Assembly (NCBI RefSeq): GCF_022410465.1
Contig: NZ_JAJSON010000018.1
Location: 62,001-126,000, forward strand
Origin: Christiangramia crocea
GTDB lineage: Bacteria; Bacteroidota; Bacteroidia; Flavobacteriales; Flavobacteriaceae
Direction: 5' to 3'
Length of the DNA stretch: 64,000 nucleotides
Each line of letters starts with the position of its first letter. The first letter of the stretch is position 1. Positions 30,676 to 36,620 of the stretch are shown in pieces. A model generated the notes under the pieces. That model was not told the DNA's origin. It saw only the letters and a program-made list of their open reading frames with translations, and did no database searches. Made by a program: the position numbers and the translations under genes.

Positions 30676-31065
30676 ATGAAAAATATAAGATTCTCACATC
30701 TAATATTACTTAGTGCAATCGGCTTCTTTTTTACGACCGAATCAAAAGGCCAGCAGGCATCGGTGAATATTCAGCAAAGCGAAAAAATAGAAAAACTAAT
30801 GGAGGTTAAAAAAGAGCTGAATAGAAATAACCGCATAAGAGATCGTTATGTTATTCAGTTATTTTATGGTGATAACGGAGAAGCGAACGAGGTGATACAG
30901 AAATATCGTGGCCTTTACACCTATCCCTCTCAAATAACCTATGAAGCTCCAAATTACAAGGTCTGGGTGGGAAATTTCCGGAACCGTCTTGAAGCCGACA
31001 GAGCCTTACTGGAGATAAAAGATAATTTTCCAGCTGCCTTTATCCCAAAACCCAAACGTAAATAG
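30676..31065 (+). CDS. SPOR domain protein
   Basis: Small secreted protein of 129 residues. A signal peptide (about 1-25, ending ESKGQQ) is followed by a short helical linker and a SPOR domain (about 56-125; RYVIQLFYGD opening, KVWVGNFRNRLEADRALLEI close). SPOR domains bind denuded glycan strands of septal peptidoglycan, so a periplasmic cell-wall location is expected. The gene is convergent with infB and shares its terminator. Confidence 0.85.
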   Translation: MKNIRFSHLILLSAIGFFFTTESKGQQASVNIQQSEKIEKLMEVKKELNRNNRIRDRYVIQLFYGDNGEANEVIQKYRGLYTYPSQITYEAPNYKVWVGNFRNRLEADRALLEIKDNFPAAFIPKPKRK

Positions 31066-31081
31066 AACAAATAAATCAAAT

Positions 31082-31113
31082 AAAAAAAGCGGCTGAAATC
31101 AGCCGCTTTTTTT
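31082..31113. terminator. Bidirectional terminator, SPOR gene and infB
   Basis: A perfect 14-base stem: seven A plus GCGGCTG (31082-31095), loop AAAT, then CAGCCGC plus seven T (31100-31113). The A/T runs make it work in both directions for the two convergent genes. Confidence 0.92.
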
Positions 31114-31137
31114 ATTTGATTTATTTAAAGGTCTTCG

Positions 31138-33873
31138 TTACTTAAGAGTCTTCTTAACTTCAACTTCCCTGAAGGCCTCGATAACATCACCTTCCTTGAT
31201 ATCATTGTAGTTCTTAACCTGAATACCACAATCATATCCTTTGGAAACCTCTTTCACATCATCCTTGAATCGCTTCAGCGATGCCAGCTCTCCGGTATAG
31301 ATTACCACGCCATCACGTATCAAGCGAATTCCGGCACTTCTATATATCTTACCAGAAGTAACCATACATCCGGCAATGGTTCCAATCTTGGAGATCTTAA
31401 AGGTCTCCCTGATCTCTGCAGTACCTGTGATCTCTTCCTTAAGTTCCGGCGAAAGCATTCCTTCCATCGCATCTTTCAGATCATTGATCGCATCGTAGAT
31501 GATCGAGTAAGTTCTGATATCTATCTCTTCCTTATCGGCTACCTGTCTAGCATTACCTGCCGGACGAACGTTAAATCCGATAATAATAGCGTCTGATGCA
31601 GAAGCGAGCAACACATCACTTTCAGTAATTGCTCCAACTCCTTTATGTATTATATTAACCTGGATCTCTTCGGTTGAAAGTTTCTGGAAACTATCGGTAA
31701 GCGCTTCAACAGAACCATCCACATCACCTTTCAGGATAATATTCAATTCCTTAAAGTCACCAAGAGCGATTCGTCTACCAATTTCATCAAGTGTGATATG
31801 ACGTTGAGTCCTTACATTCTGCTCACGTTGCAATTGTGTACGTCTTGCAGCAATTTCCTTGGCCTCACGTTCATCTTCCATCACCTTGAAGGTATCACCA
31901 GCCTGTGGCGCACCATCAAGACCAAGTATGGAAACTGGAGTAGACGGGCCGGCTTCCTTCACCTCTTTTCCACGTTCATCATGCATAGCCTTTACTTTAC
32001 CACTATGACGACCGGCGAGCACATAATCACCCACTTTTAGAGTTCCGGACTGTACAAGAATCGTAGCCACATAACCACGACCTTTATCAAGGAAAGCCTC
32101 CACTACGGTACCCTTAGAAAGTTTATCAGGATTAGCCTTTAGCTCAAGAATCTCTGCTTCAAGCAGTACTTTTTCAAGCAACTCCTTAACACCAGTTCCT
32201 GTTTTTGCCGAAATATCATGCGACTGGATCTTACCTCCCCAATCTTCTACCAGTAAATTCATACCGGCGAGCTTTTCCTTGATCTTTTCAGGGTTTGCTG
32301 TTGGAAGATCAGATTTGTTGATCGCAAATACAATAGGAACACCTGCAGCCTGCGCGTGCGAGATAGCCTCTTTTGTTTGCGGCATCACATCATCATCGGC
32401 AGCGATCACGATAATCGCAATATCTGTAACCTGCGCACCACGAGCACGCATCGCCGTAAAGGCCTCGTGACCCGGGGTATCCAGGAATGTTATTTTTTGT
32501 CCGTTATCTAGTTCAACTCCGTAGGCACCAATATGCTGAGTAATTCCACCACTTTCACCTGCGATCACATTTTCCTGACGGATGTAATCCAGCAAGGATG
32601 TTTTTCCATGGTCAACGTGTCCCATTACGGTTACTATAGGAGCTCTATCAACAAGGTCTTCCGGATTTTCTTCAACTTCCTCAACGGTTTCTTCAACATC
32701 AGCCGTCGTAAATTCAACTTCATAACCGAATTCCTCTGCTACAATACTTAAGGTTTCAGCATCCAGCCTCTGGTTCATGGTAACCATCATACCAAGAGAC
32801 ATACATGCAGAGATCACCTTGGTAACTGAAACATCCATCATGGTTGCCACCTCACTTACAGTAACGAATTCAGTAACTTTTAATACTTTTTCGTCTGACT
32901 CCTGTTGTGCAAGATCCTGCTCAGATCTCTGACGGTGCTGATCTCTTTTCTCTCTACGGTATTTAGCGCCTTTACCTTTACTGGATTTCCCCTGAAGTTT
33001 TTCAAGGGTTTCGCGAACCTGCTTTTGTACTTCTTCTTCGGTAGGCTCCTCTTTAGCAATTGGCTTGCCTCTTTTGCGCGCACCTCTTTTACCAGGCCCC
33101 TGATTAGGACCTCCTTTCACATCCTTACTGATGCGGCGGCGGCGCTTTTTACGCTTATCTTTCTTATCATCATCTGCAGAAGCCTTCTTTTCCTCCTTCT
33201 TCTTGACCGGCTTTTTAAATTGTGAAAGATCGATCTTCTTACCAGTGAAATTAGGACCACTAAGCTTAGTGTACTTGGTTTCAATAGTACTTGATTCTTT
33301 AGCCTCTTCCTTCTCTTCTTTTTCCGGCTCAGGCTTCTTCTCTTCCTTCGGTTCTTCTTTCTCTGCTTTTTCTGTTTTTTCTTCTTTCGCAGCTGGTTTT
33401 TCGGGCTCTTTACTGGCTTCAGCTTCTTTGACAGGTTCTTCGGCTGGAGCTTTCGATTCCTCTTTAGGGGCTTCTTCTTCCTTAGGGGCTTGTTCCTCTT
33501 TCTGAGGTTTTTCACCTGGTTTATCCAGATCTATTTTCCCAACAGTTTTGGGACCCTCAAGTTTAGCTCTTGATGAAATAGCTTCTTCCTTCTCCTTTTT
33601 CTCCTCCTCAGCCTTCCGCTTTTCTTCAATTTCCTTACGCAGCTCTTCTTTCTCTTTCTTCCTCTCCTCACCAACTTCTTTAGAAGCAACTTTTTTACTC
33701 TTGTCGGTTTGGAATTCATCAGAAAGCACCTCATAGATTTCTCCAGAGATTTTTGTAGTTGGACGTGCATCTATCTCGTAGCCCTTGGAATTAAGATATT
33801 CCACAGCCCTGTCTAACGAGATATTGAACTCACGTAGAACCTTATTTAATCGCGTTGTTTTCGCTTCTGCCAT
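31138..33873 (-). CDS. infB: Translation initiation factor IF-2
   Basis: GTPase of 911 residues that brings initiator tRNA to the 30S subunit. The N-terminal 310 residues are mostly Lys/Glu/Ala repeats, a long charged and probably disordered segment typical of Bacteroidota IF-2. After the second N-terminal domain, the G domain has [19 protein letters not shown] and NKSD. Domains II, III and the fMet-tRNA-binding IV follow. It is the last gene of rimP-nusA-infB, 53 bases after nusA. The frame is intact. Confidence 0.97.
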
Positions 33874-33926: not shown

Positions 33927-35159
33927 TTATTCTTCAAATTCTGAGCGAAGAACTGCCATCACATCCCTGATGGTTTCTTCCTCAAGGTCTGTACGGCGAA
34001 CAAGATCGTCAACATCCTGTTCCAGTACAGCCTTTGCCGTATCCAGACCGATTTTTGAAAATTCTGCAATCACCCAATCTTCAATTTCGTCTGTAAATTC
34101 TTTCAACTCAACATCTTCTTCAACTCCTTCACGATACACATCAATCTCATAACCCGTCAACTGACCCGCCAATCGAATATTGTGCCCTCCACGACCTATC
34201 GCTTTAGAAACCTCTTCAGGCTTTAGCATAACTTCTGCCGTTTTCGCTTCTTCATTCATTTTAATGGAAGTTATCTTAGCAGGACTCAGTGCCCTAGTAA
34301 TAAATAACTGTTCATTATTAGTGAAATTAATCACATCAATATTTTCATTCCCCAACTCACGTACTATACTGTGAATCCTGGAACCTTTCATTCCCACACA
34401 TGCTCCAACCGGATCTATCCTGTCGTCATAAGAATCAACAGCTACTTTCGCTTTCTCACCGGGAACACGTACTACTTTCTTAATTGTAATCAAACCATCA
34501 AACACTTCCGGGATTTCCTGTTCGAATAACTTCTCAAGGAAACCGGGAGCGGTTCTGGACATTATAATCGTAGGCTTGTTACCTTTTAGTTCCACGCTCT
34601 CAATGATCCCTCGTACATTCTCTCCCTTACGGAAGAAATCTGACGGGATCTGGCGGTCTTTTGGAAGCACTATCTCATTTCCTTCATCATCAAGAAGAAT
34701 AATGGCTCTGTGCCTTATATGATGAACTTCTGCAGTGTAGATCTCTCCTTCAAGATCTTTGAACTGCTTGTAAATATTCGTGTTATCATGCTCATGAATC
34801 TTAGAGATAAGATTTTGACGCAATGCAAGAATTGCTCTTCGTCCAAGATCAGCAAGCTTCACTTCTTCGGAAACATCTTCACCCACTTCAAAGTCGGGCT
34901 CGATCTTTCTCGCCTGAGTAAGCGAGATCTCCCTGTTAGAATCTTCTACTTCACCATCGGCTACCACCACTCTGTTTCTCCAAATTTCGAGATCCCCTTT
35001 ATCAGGGTTTACAATAATATCAAAATTATCGTCTTCTCCATACTTTTTCTTTAAAGCATTTCTAAAAACATCCTCTAAAATCGCCATTAAGGTTACACGA
35101 TCTATGAGCTTATCGTCTTTAAACTCTGAGAATGACTCAATCAACGCGATATTTTCCAT
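33927..35159 (-). CDS. nusA: Transcription termination/antitermination protein NusA
   Basis: RNA polymerase-binding factor of 410 residues controlling pausing, termination and antitermination. Domains in order are N-terminal polymerase-binding (about 1-125), S1 (about 130-200), KH1 with VGACVGMKGSRIHSI (near 250-264) and KH2 with AIGRGGHNIRLAGQLTG (near 315-331). The C-terminal acidic repeats of the E. coli protein are missing, as in most Bacteroidota. In E. coli NusA feeds back on its own operon leader; a terminator-like hairpin before rimP makes that worth testing here. Confidence 0.96.
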   Translation of the reverse strand: MENIALIESFSEFKDDKLIDRVTLMAILEDVFRNALKKKYGEDDNFDIIVNPDKGDLEIWRNRVVVADGEVEDSNREISLTQARKIEPDFEVGEDVSEEVKLADLGRRAILALRQNLISKIHEHDNTNIYKQFKDLEGEIYTAEVHHIRHRAIILLDDEGNEIVLPKDRQIPSDFFRKGENVRGIIESVELKGNKPTIIMSRTAPGFLEKLFEQEIPEVFDGLITIKKVVRVPGEKAKVAVDSYDDRIDPVGACVGMKGSRIHSIVRELGNENIDVINFTNNEQLFITRALSPAKITSIKMNEEAKTAEVMLKPEEVSKAIGRGGHNIRLAGQLTGYEIDVYREGVEEDVELKEFTDEIEDWVIAEFSKIGLDTAKAVLEQDVDDLVRRTDLEEETIRDVMAVLRSEFEE

Positions 35160-35171
35160 ATCAATTTGTGA

Positions 35172-35633
35172 TTAAAATGTTATTTTAACTTTTGCTTCCA
35201 CAATATCAGAATAAGGCAATACGACCTCTTTCTGTACTGTAACTTTTCCTTTTCCTACCGGTTTTGGTTCTCTCGCCTTCCAGGAAAGTTTTATTTCATT
35301 TTCATCTGCAGCCACAAGCTCTCCTTCGAATTTATCATCCGCGGTTTTCACCTTTAACTTACGACCTAAGTTTTTTTTGTATTGTCTTGGCATCGAAAGA
35401 GGTTCTGAGACTCCCGCTGAAGTCACCTCCAGGGAAAAATCTTCTTCGTCCCTGTCCAGGTTATGCTCTATGGCACGGCTTACCATTATACAGTCATTTA
35501 CTGAAACTCCTTCATCGCCGTCTATAACGACCTTAATGTTGTTCGCAGAGTTCACATCAAGGCTGATTAAAAATAAGAAATTATTCTCTTCAAAAACCTT
35601 CGCTGCTAATTTTTCTACCTTCTCCTTCAGCAT
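35172..35633 (-). CDS. rimP: Ribosome maturation factor RimP
   Basis: 30S subunit assembly factor of 153 residues. The start is the ATG at MLKEKVEKLAAKVFEE, because the frame's upstream extension (to 35774) runs through the promoter and the leader hairpin and encodes unrelated hydrophobic sequence. Family segments are VNDCIMVSRAIEHNLD and SLEVTSAGVSEPL (near 84-96), then the C-terminal SH3-like domain with RKLKVKTADDKFEGELVAAD. It is first in the operon with nusA (12 bases apart) and infB. Confidence 0.93.
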   Translation of the reverse strand: MLKEKVEKLAAKVFEENNFLFLISLDVNSANNIKVVIDGDEGVSVNDCIMVSRAIEHNLDRDEEDFSLEVTSAGVSEPLSMPRQYKKNLGRKLKVKTADDKFEGELVAADENEIKLSWKAREPKPVGKGKVTVQKEVVLPYSDIVEAKVKITF

Positions 35634-35641
35634 ATGTTTAT

Positions 35642-35666
35642 AAAAAGAGGGGACTCCTGTCCCCTC
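35642..35666 (-). promoter_or_regulatory. Terminator-like hairpin in rimP leader
   Basis: On the minus strand the stem GAGGGGAC/GTCCCCTC (35647-35654 with 35659-35666, four-base loop) is followed directly by TTTTT (35642-35646), eight bases before the rimP ATG. This is the form of an intrinsic terminator placed inside a 5' leader. Confidence 0.7.
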
Positions 35667-35692
35667 GCTGTACTTTTTTAGTTTCAACGCTG

Positions 35693-35723
35693 CAAATATA
35701 GCAATAATTTCCAAGTATAAAAA
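35693..35723 (-). promoter_or_regulatory. rimP-nusA-infB promoter
   Basis: On the minus strand TTTT (35720-35723), exactly 19 bases, then TATATTTG (35693-35700): one mismatch from the Bacteroidota consensus. It predicts a leader of about 55 bases that contains the hairpin at 35642-35666, and it excludes the longer rimP start. Confidence 0.7.
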
Positions 35724-35792
35724 CGTGATAATAAATGAAATATTCTTTGTAGTTTTAAACATACATTCATTCATAAGCTATTACTCACACTC

Positions 35793-36620
35793 ATGAAAAA
35801 CATCCTTGTTCCTACAGACTTTAGCGACCAGGCAGAAAAAGCACTAAAAGTAGCCGCTCAACTAGCCAGAAAGTTCGACGGAGAGATCTTTTTACTGCAC
35901 ATGCTGGAACTCCCGCTACAACTAATAGACCCGGTTCAGGGAAGCAGCCATAATTTACCGGAAGCTATATTCTTCATGAAACTTGCCCATCAGCGTTTCT
36001 CCAATCTAATGAAACAACCGTATCTTAAAGGCCTCAAGGTACACGAAACCGTAGAGTTTCACCGTGCTTTTGATGGCATTATGGAAATTGGACGTGAGAA
36101 AAAATGCGACCTTATTGTGATGGGATCTCATGGAGTAAGCGGCTTTCAGGAAATGTTCATAGGTTCCAATACTGAAAAAGTGGTAAGACATTCGGAGATT
36201 CCTGTACTGGTGATCAAAAATGAAATCCCCGATTTTGAGATAGACAACTTCATTTTTGCCACAGATGCCAATCCTGAACATAAGCACACCTTAAAAAAAG
36301 CAATAAAATTTGCTAATACCATTGGCGCCAAACTCCACCTTCTGTTCGTAAATACTCCGAACAATTTCATGACCAGTGAAGAAGCCAGCGAGAGAATGGC
36401 AAAATTCATTGATGAATCAGATCCCGGTAATTACGAGGTTCATATATATAATGACATAAGTGTGGAAAAAGGGATTTTGCACTTTGCTGAAAAGATGCAT
36501 GCAGGATTAATAGGAATCAGTACTCATGGCCGCAAAGGGCTGGCACATTTCTTTAACGGAAGCATCAGCGAGGATCTTGTAAATCATTCAAACCGGCCGG
36601 TGGTAACCTTCAAGATCTAA
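35793..36620 (+). CDS. Universal stress protein, tandem UspA domains
   Basis: Cytoplasmic protein of 275 residues with two UspA folds (about 1-145 and 150-275). The first has the nucleotide-binding pattern GSHGVSGFQEMFIGS (G-x2-G-x9-GS). In the second the equivalent is STHGRKGLAHFFNGS, with the first Gly changed to Ser, so ATP binding there may be weaker. Tandem forms are common in Bacteroidota, and a general stress role is inferred. Its stop codon overlaps that of the convergent gene at 36617 by three bases within a four-base shared stretch. Confidence 0.92.
   Translation: MKNILVPTDFSDQAEKALKVAAQLARKFDGEIFLLHMLELPLQLIDPVQGSSHNLPEAIFFMKLAHQRFSNLMKQPYLKGLKVHETVEFHRAFDGIMEIGREKKCDLIVMGSHGVSGFQEMFIGSNTEKVVRHSEIPVLVIKNEIPDFEIDNFIFATDANPEHKHTLKKAIKFANTIGAKLHLLFVNTPNNFMTSEEASERMAKFIDESDPGNYEVHIYNDISVEKGILHFAEKMHAGLIGISTHGRKGLAHFFNGSISEDLVNHSNRPVVTFKI

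Follow-up and report, generated by a model that had tools for sequence, protein, structure and literature searches.

What does a terminator-like hairpin do directly ahead of the operon that encodes NusA, and which product of that operon, if any, does it serve? We addressed this question for the window (the whole 64,000-nucleotide stretch of DNA analysed here), which comes from a flavobacterium whose RimP has its nearest named relatives in Gramella jeungdoensis (95% identity) and in Christiangramia species (84–88%). To our knowledge, termination factors have been little studied in Bacteroidota.

The leader hairpin and its operon

The identities of RimP, NusA and IF-2 were confirmed by NCBIfam profiles, and the 5' region of the rimP-nusA-infB operon contains a terminator-type hairpin with a G-rich 5' arm, a C-rich 3' arm and a T-stretch (Table 1). 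Six of the eight stem pairs are G-C. The stem lies 13 nt and the T5 tract 8 nt from the start of rimP, the eight bases between T5 and the ATG at 35633 being ATAAACAT. Re-reading of the sequence bore out the position of the hairpin, the stem length, the T5 tract and the spacing to rimP as originally predicted; the 55-base leader of the same prediction, in which the hairpin was correctly placed, owes its length to a start near 35688 that is deduced from the promoter box. The leader folds with an energy of -19.1 kcal/mol (z -3.97), and none of 200 shuffled sequences was as stable. No pairing that competes with the stem was found in the leader fold, and only about 22 nt separate the putative start from the stem. 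The hairpin was confirmed as a real element between a probable promoter and the first start codon.

Table 1. Features of the rimP-nusA-infB locus, in window coordinates
Feature	Position	Strand	Evidence
-7-like box TATATTTG	35700-35693	minus	matches Bacteroidota -7 box TAnnTTTG
Short leader stretch, putative start (~35688) to stem	35667..35688	minus	start placed from box position
Hairpin GAGGGGAC-AGGA-GTCCCCTC, 8 perfect pairs	35647..35666	minus	sequence, fold, conservation, paired changes
Hairpin 5' arm GAGGGGAC	35666-35659	minus	sequence
Hairpin loop AGGA	35658-35655	minus	sequence
Hairpin 3' arm GTCCCCTC	35654-35647	minus	sequence
T5 tract, then ATA; terminator-like	35642..35646	minus	sequence, terminator scan
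rimP, start ATG at 35633	35172..35633	minus	NF002531 match, residues 1-153, 215 bits; ORF list
nusA	33927..35159	minus	TIGR01953, 365 bits
infB (IF-2)	31138..33873	minus	TIGR00487, 840 bits
Divergent neighbour, universal stress protein	35793..36620	plus	Pfam PF00582

The rimP frame stays open for 47 codons upstream of the conserved start (35634–35774, minus strand), across the hairpin and the promoter box, so that its start is easily misannotated. The longer RimP of 200 aa that would begin at an ATG at 35774 was rejected: the ATG at 35633 is where the alignment to the family profile begins, the extension would contain the promoter box, and at locus L023 the frame is open for only 154 aa. Beyond infB, a palindrome with 20-bp arms (AAAAAAAGCGGCTG..CAGCCGCTTTTTTT, window 31074–31121) is located between the end of that gene and a convergent ORF (30676–31065) and scans as a terminator on both strands.

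GGGGAC..GTCCCC or GAGGGG..CCCCTC has a single occurrence, at this locus, in 464 kb of the window's own genome, and the longer pattern, T-tract included, is found just once genome-wide. A strict hairpin with a T-tract no more than 80 nt upstream was found for 10 of the 349 ORFs in these 464 kb (rimP was scored at its upstream in-frame ATG in this test and hence is not among the ten). Because all ten follow a codirectional gene, these hairpins are probably the 3' ends of the gene before. Compared with 37 3'-end hairpins of the same genome, the core of the leader stem is more stable (-14.9 kcal/mol versus a median of -11.9), and the U-tract UUUUUAUA has six T among its first nine positions versus a mean of 7.24, with 8 of the 37 as low. 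In the listed tails of the named relatives, the T-tract consists of T4-5 and then a non-T, mostly A.

A promoter-proximal layout

The box TAnnTTTG, given as the flavobacterial -7 consensus in passages of PMC9723704, ends 10–30 nt before the stem at all 110 Bacteroidia loci with the hairpin, as opposed to 6–8% in mononucleotide shuffles; a sigma-70 promoter scan was uninformative (29 sites versus 28.8 in shuffles) and was left unused. Transcription that starts about five bases after the box would leave only some 5–25 nt ahead of the stem. With the box so close to the stem, there is little room for an antiterminator, an aptamer or riboswitch, or a leader peptide, so that a factor acting on the elongation complex would be the simplest regulator. 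A leader this short suggests either a controlling factor that acts on RNA polymerase or the absence of any control.

Conservation across Bacteroidota

The stem was sought upstream of rimP in relatives, as had been suggested along with the original prediction, and proved strongly conserved. It is present at all 30 loci fetched from the genus and family (out of 50 genomes with RimP). A scan of 80 named Flavobacteriaceae loci found a strict hairpin with a T-tract in the last 150 nt at 78 of them, 77 of which also have the TAnnTTTG box upstream; at the remaining two (L297 and L300) the hairpin is further upstream, starting 150 and 201 nt from rimP. The sequence GGGGAC..GTCCYC itself occurs at 78 of the 80 loci; at L285 the scan had taken another, further upstream hairpin, the GGGGAC one being present there as well, and variant stems were seen at L280 and L291. 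The longest upstream ORF is divergent in 73 of these 80 relatives.

Across the order, the pattern GGGGAC(3-8)GTCCYCTYTTTT was detected in 90 of 296 genomes, and a reversed-pattern control had none among the matches listed. There were 96 pattern matches in all, for 19 of which the place of RimP was not listed; 74 of the other 77 sit 9–108 nt upstream of rimP, and of the last three, one is a rimP hairpin read from the opposite strand and the other two lie elsewhere.

In a sample of rimP upstream regions from across the phylum, a hairpin with a T-tract was present at 129 of 138 loci (82 of 2,760 shuffles), and at 112 of 138 under stricter limits, for which the shuffle rate was at most 0.2%. The sample was assembled from 30 of the 50 RimP genomes of the first search, 28 new loci and 80 hand-picked stretches, and it deliberately includes members of the order without the exact pattern. 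A reverse-complement control was not a clean negative (22/138 matches, presumably because the palindrome itself also scores when read from the opposite strand), and shuffles were used in its place. Over the 129 loci, the hairpin lies 11–117 nt from the start of the RimP match. Outside the class it is less regular (19 of 25 loci), and the TAnnTTTG box accompanies only 6 of those 19. Among the nine misses, six loci (L091, L094, L134, L135, L155 and L171) show a shorter or long-loop hairpin, L152 has a weak hairpin only, and L133 and L147 have none.

Several loci depart from the usual arrangement. At L086 and L090 (both of genus g39), as well as L297 and L300, some 100–200 nt of extra sequence separate the hairpin from the start of rimP, GC-rich in L086 and L090, and in five named relatives the scan placed the hairpin 104–113 nt from rimP. 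One genome (G252, loci L317 and L318), possibly a mixed one, carries two rimP-nusA copies, both with the hairpin; its duplicate was considered as a case of rimP without nusA and dropped, as nusA adjoins both copies and the hairpin precedes both. In another genome (G190), RimP and full NusA were each matched twice.

Turnover of the stem

In genus g33 the core GAGGGGAC/GTCCCCTC is replaced by GAGGCACG/CGTGCCTC at three loci (L080, L168 and L169) and by GAGGGAAG/CTTCCCTC at a fourth (L081), with the outer GAG/CTC and TTTTTATA retained in these variants. The Lacinutrix locus L291 has the stem GAGCGGAC/GTCCGCTC, and the stems of other families include GGGAACG/CGTTCCC, GGGGGC/GCCCCC and TCGCCC/GGGCGA, among others. 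We aligned nine rows that were hand-chosen for register and for differing stems, so the counts are illustrative and not those of a random sample: 100% of the cells pair, and five of the eight pairs change on both sides, a number reached in 16 of 500 shuffles. Sliding the partner lowers the pairing to 46–74%. The number of further pair types in this alignment was not above the control (5 versus a shuffled mean of 5.1, reached in 393 of 500). An alignment of 20 rows was dropped since MAFFT had shifted the 3' arms. Judged from these sequences, the conserved feature is a hairpin with a T-tract, that is, structure rather than sequence. The near-invariant stem of Flavobacteriaceae is nevertheless conserved in sequence beyond what a plain terminator would require, and another, sequence-specific reader might exist there. 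Family f5 (L084, L091–L094 and L171) differs clearly from Flavobacteriaceae: its stem is AAGGC(C)TT..AAGCCTT or AAGGCC..GCCTT around a larger loop, and its T-tract runs into CGTA.

Linkage to nusA in the absence of rimP

We examined 20 nusA loci from genomes in which no rimP was detected. A hairpin with a T-tract precedes nusA by no more than 180 nt at 18 of them, as opposed to 15 of 1,000 shuffles. The TAnnTTTG box precedes the hairpin in 16 of these 18, and at 17 of the 20 loci the ORF upstream runs in the opposite direction. Two of the stems, GGGGGACATTGTCCCC at L201 (from the same family) and GAGGGGACTAATGTCCCC at L221 (family f15), are still of the GGGGAC..GTCCCC type found ahead of rimP; a RimP-carrying member of f15 (L174) has its hairpin before rimP. 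The two misses are L204, where a weaker GGGC..GCCC with T6 is visible, and L207, from a 300-kb genome. At L202 and L205 (145 and 89 nt from nusA, respectively) the hairpin comes after a codirectional ORF and could be the 3' end of that ORF, and L227 offers just 487 nt of upstream sequence.

These 20 loci were taken from 22 NusA matches above the cut-off (matches below it were dropped), leaving out L203, with a match that starts where the contig does, and L231, a partial NusA match. With PF02576, none of 30 entries, which include 19 of the 20 genomes (all but G139), scored above the cut-off as RimP, and four sub-threshold matches fell in ORFs of 487–1083 aa. NF002531 gave no match in 15 of the 20 genomes; the genomes it did match do not include G124, G128, G132 or G139, in a search that leaves 68 unmatched genomes unlisted, and for G027 the absence of RimP is based on the window RimP query and PF02576. 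Given that a good number of the rimP-less genomes are incomplete, the safest meaning of the result is that rimP is absent from the place before nusA. The leader has stayed while the rimP frame is gone, and the element goes with nusA-infB and not with rimP.

Judged by eye, nusA and infB share a contig and are separated by a few kb in almost all of the 137 genomes with both listed, and infB-like frames follow nusA in the rimP-less loci. The exceptions noticed (G351, G416, G417, G435 and G446) have the two genes on different contigs. As infB is near nusA wherever both are on one contig, this comparison cannot separate NusA from IF2.

A putative attenuator and its likely regulator

The reading that we favour, at a little better than even chances, is that the hairpin is a promoter-proximal intrinsic terminator (attenuator) of the rimP-nusA-infB leader, with readthrough most likely set by NusA as negative feedback. 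The hairpin's sequence, position, conservation, paired stem changes and place before nusA where rimP is lacking are direct observations; a transcription start just behind the box, intracellular termination and regulation by NusA are what we infer. RNA polymerase would reach the hairpin about 45–50 nt after the start; some transcripts would end there, and the remainder would read into the operon. The fraction that reads through would most likely be set by NusA itself, such that plentiful NusA would give more termination and lower expression, and scarce NusA would let more polymerases pass. NusA feedback on its own operon was also what the original prediction had proposed. Of that proposal, the persistence of the element with nusA where rimP is gone and the precedents in Bacillus subtilis and Escherichia coli speak in its favour, and termination and NusA dependence are its presumptive part. 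The observation itself is confirmed, and feedback by NusA is a plausible, as yet unproven, interpretation of it.

Two properties of the hairpin bear weakly on NusA dependence. The interrupted T-tract, only mildly unusual in this genome, is weakly in favour because an interrupted distal U-tract is a trait of NusA-dependent terminators in B. subtilis, which are described in passages of PMC8060035 as having a suboptimal hairpin and/or such a tract. The strong stem is weakly against, as termination may be efficient without a factor. A broader proposal, to which we give somewhat less than even chances, is that of a minimal phylum-wide feedback valve: the terminator would be too near the promoter to need a sensor RNA, and readthrough would report how readily NusA joins a newly started RNA polymerase. 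Such a valve would be the ancestral control of nusA-infB in Bacteroidota, outliving both the loss of rimP and full replacement of the stem.

Among the alternatives, a fixed, unregulated partial terminator, that is, a constant valve that keeps the level of the operon transcript low without any feedback, is a possibility to be taken seriously, albeit a minor one. It would account for a strong stem and T-tract in a very short leader with no visible sensor, and for a structure that is kept while the stem sequence turns over. A weaker promoter would presumably do the same job, however, and a link to nusA that spans the phylum and persists without rimP fits better with regulation by a product of the operon. 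That product, or the regulator in general, need not be NusA: it is conceivable, if unlikely, that the attenuator responds to IF2, NusG or general transcription-translation coupling, given that infB accompanies nusA in the inspected loci and that NusG also stimulates intrinsic termination in B. subtilis (in part of PMC8060035). The autoregulation of its own operon that has been published, though, belongs to NusA. Control by RimP, the product of the first gene, was a possibility raised in 2010 (in passages of PMC2965389). Since the hairpin is retained before nusA in 18 of the 20 loci of genomes without detectable rimP, the element is tied to nusA-infB and RimP is disfavoured as its controller; we consider feedback by RimP on its own leader highly improbable.

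Other readings dispense with attenuation altogether. The hairpin might act in mRNA stability or in the control of translation beside the start codon, its T-tract being incidental. The stem, 13 nt from the start codon, would be near enough to touch an initiating ribosome, and flavobacterial mRNAs are described as lacking Shine-Dalgarno sequences in passages of PMC9723704. We nonetheless regard this role as rather improbable, slightly more so than control by another factor, as the T-tract is kept with the stem despite changes in the stem sequence and the hairpin stands anywhere from 11 to 117 nt from where the RimP match begins. The remaining alternative, an ordinary 3' terminator or insulator of the upstream gene, is what the ten upstream hairpins of this genome would lead one to expect, all of them following a codirectional gene. 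At rimP, however, the gene on the upstream side points the other way, and in 73 of 80 named relatives the longest upstream ORF does so too. The hairpin also comes after the -7 box and before the first start codon, on the operon side of the probable promoter; it is therefore not the 3' terminator of a preceding gene, and the chance left to this reading is negligible, lower even than that of RimP feedback.

Comparison with known leader elements

The hypothesis of NusA feedback is already in print for other phyla. The rimP-leader (Rfam RF01770) was predicted as an attenuator of rimP-nusA-infB by Naville and Gautheret in 2010 (PMC2965389), who, in the passages available, call it the most ubiquitous attenuator and NusA its best candidate regulator; the same passages state that E. 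coli NusA represses this operon. In parts of PMC6511841, terminators upstream of rimP are reported for E. coli, with operon transcripts that rise when NusA termination is reduced. The hairpin of the window resembles the rimP-leader, as portrayed in those passages, in its operon, in the single terminator hairpin with a G-rich 5' and a C-rich 3' arm and a T-stretch, and in having no visible antiterminator. The distance of 4–130 nt from terminator to gene in the passages on the rimP-leader accommodates the hairpin of the window (13 nt from the stem, 8 nt from T5) and the 129 loci (11–117 nt); two relatives exceed it (150 and 201 nt). The stem, in contrast, is GGGGAC..GTCCCC and departs from the motif GGGc(...)gCCC given there, although GGGC..GCCC stems exist at some other Bacteroidota loci (for example, L158, L159, L170 and L226), and the hairpin here lies directly downstream of a probable promoter. 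Bacteroidota are unmentioned in the available portions of the main text of PMC2965389. RF01770 gave no match at the locus with E values up to 10, its gathering cut-off of 47 bits not being reached, and its 63 weak matches in the window's own genome (among the 150 of 620 candidates scored) included none at the locus and none above the cut-off. A search of Rfam at gathering and relaxed thresholds yielded at the locus only weak matches to unrelated families, far below their cut-offs.

In Flavobacterium psychrophilum, a member of the same bacterial family, transcriptome data revealed a structured 5' element upstream of the same gene, rimP, which has conserved counterparts in other genera and gave no Rfam hits (PMC9723704, whose available passages give neither structure nor mechanism). 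It is likely the same element as the hairpin of the window. A literature search, with few subscription papers covered, found no other publication on a leader terminator of nusA in Bacteroidota or on its retention without rimP.

The closest functional parallel is the nusA leader of B. subtilis, where NusA is autoregulated via NusA-stimulated termination in its own leader (in part of the review PMC12288461). In both cases the nusA operon begins with a leader that contains a putative or known intrinsic terminator; the dependence on NusA was measured in B. subtilis, according to those parts, and is predicted here, as is the feedback by the product, and the B. subtilis leader is 180 nt long (a figure from passages of PMC2965389) versus about 55 nt in the window. 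As far as its passages go, the 2010 paper left control by RimP or by NusA open, favouring NusA, and the rimP-less Bacteroidota answer part of that question from sequence alone, as their hairpin remains ahead of nusA. Elements of this class are known; the details that appear to be new are the form found in Bacteroidota, its promoter-proximal layout and its retention before nusA without rimP. The very short leader described here would make a simple system for measuring NusA-stimulated termination with few other parts.
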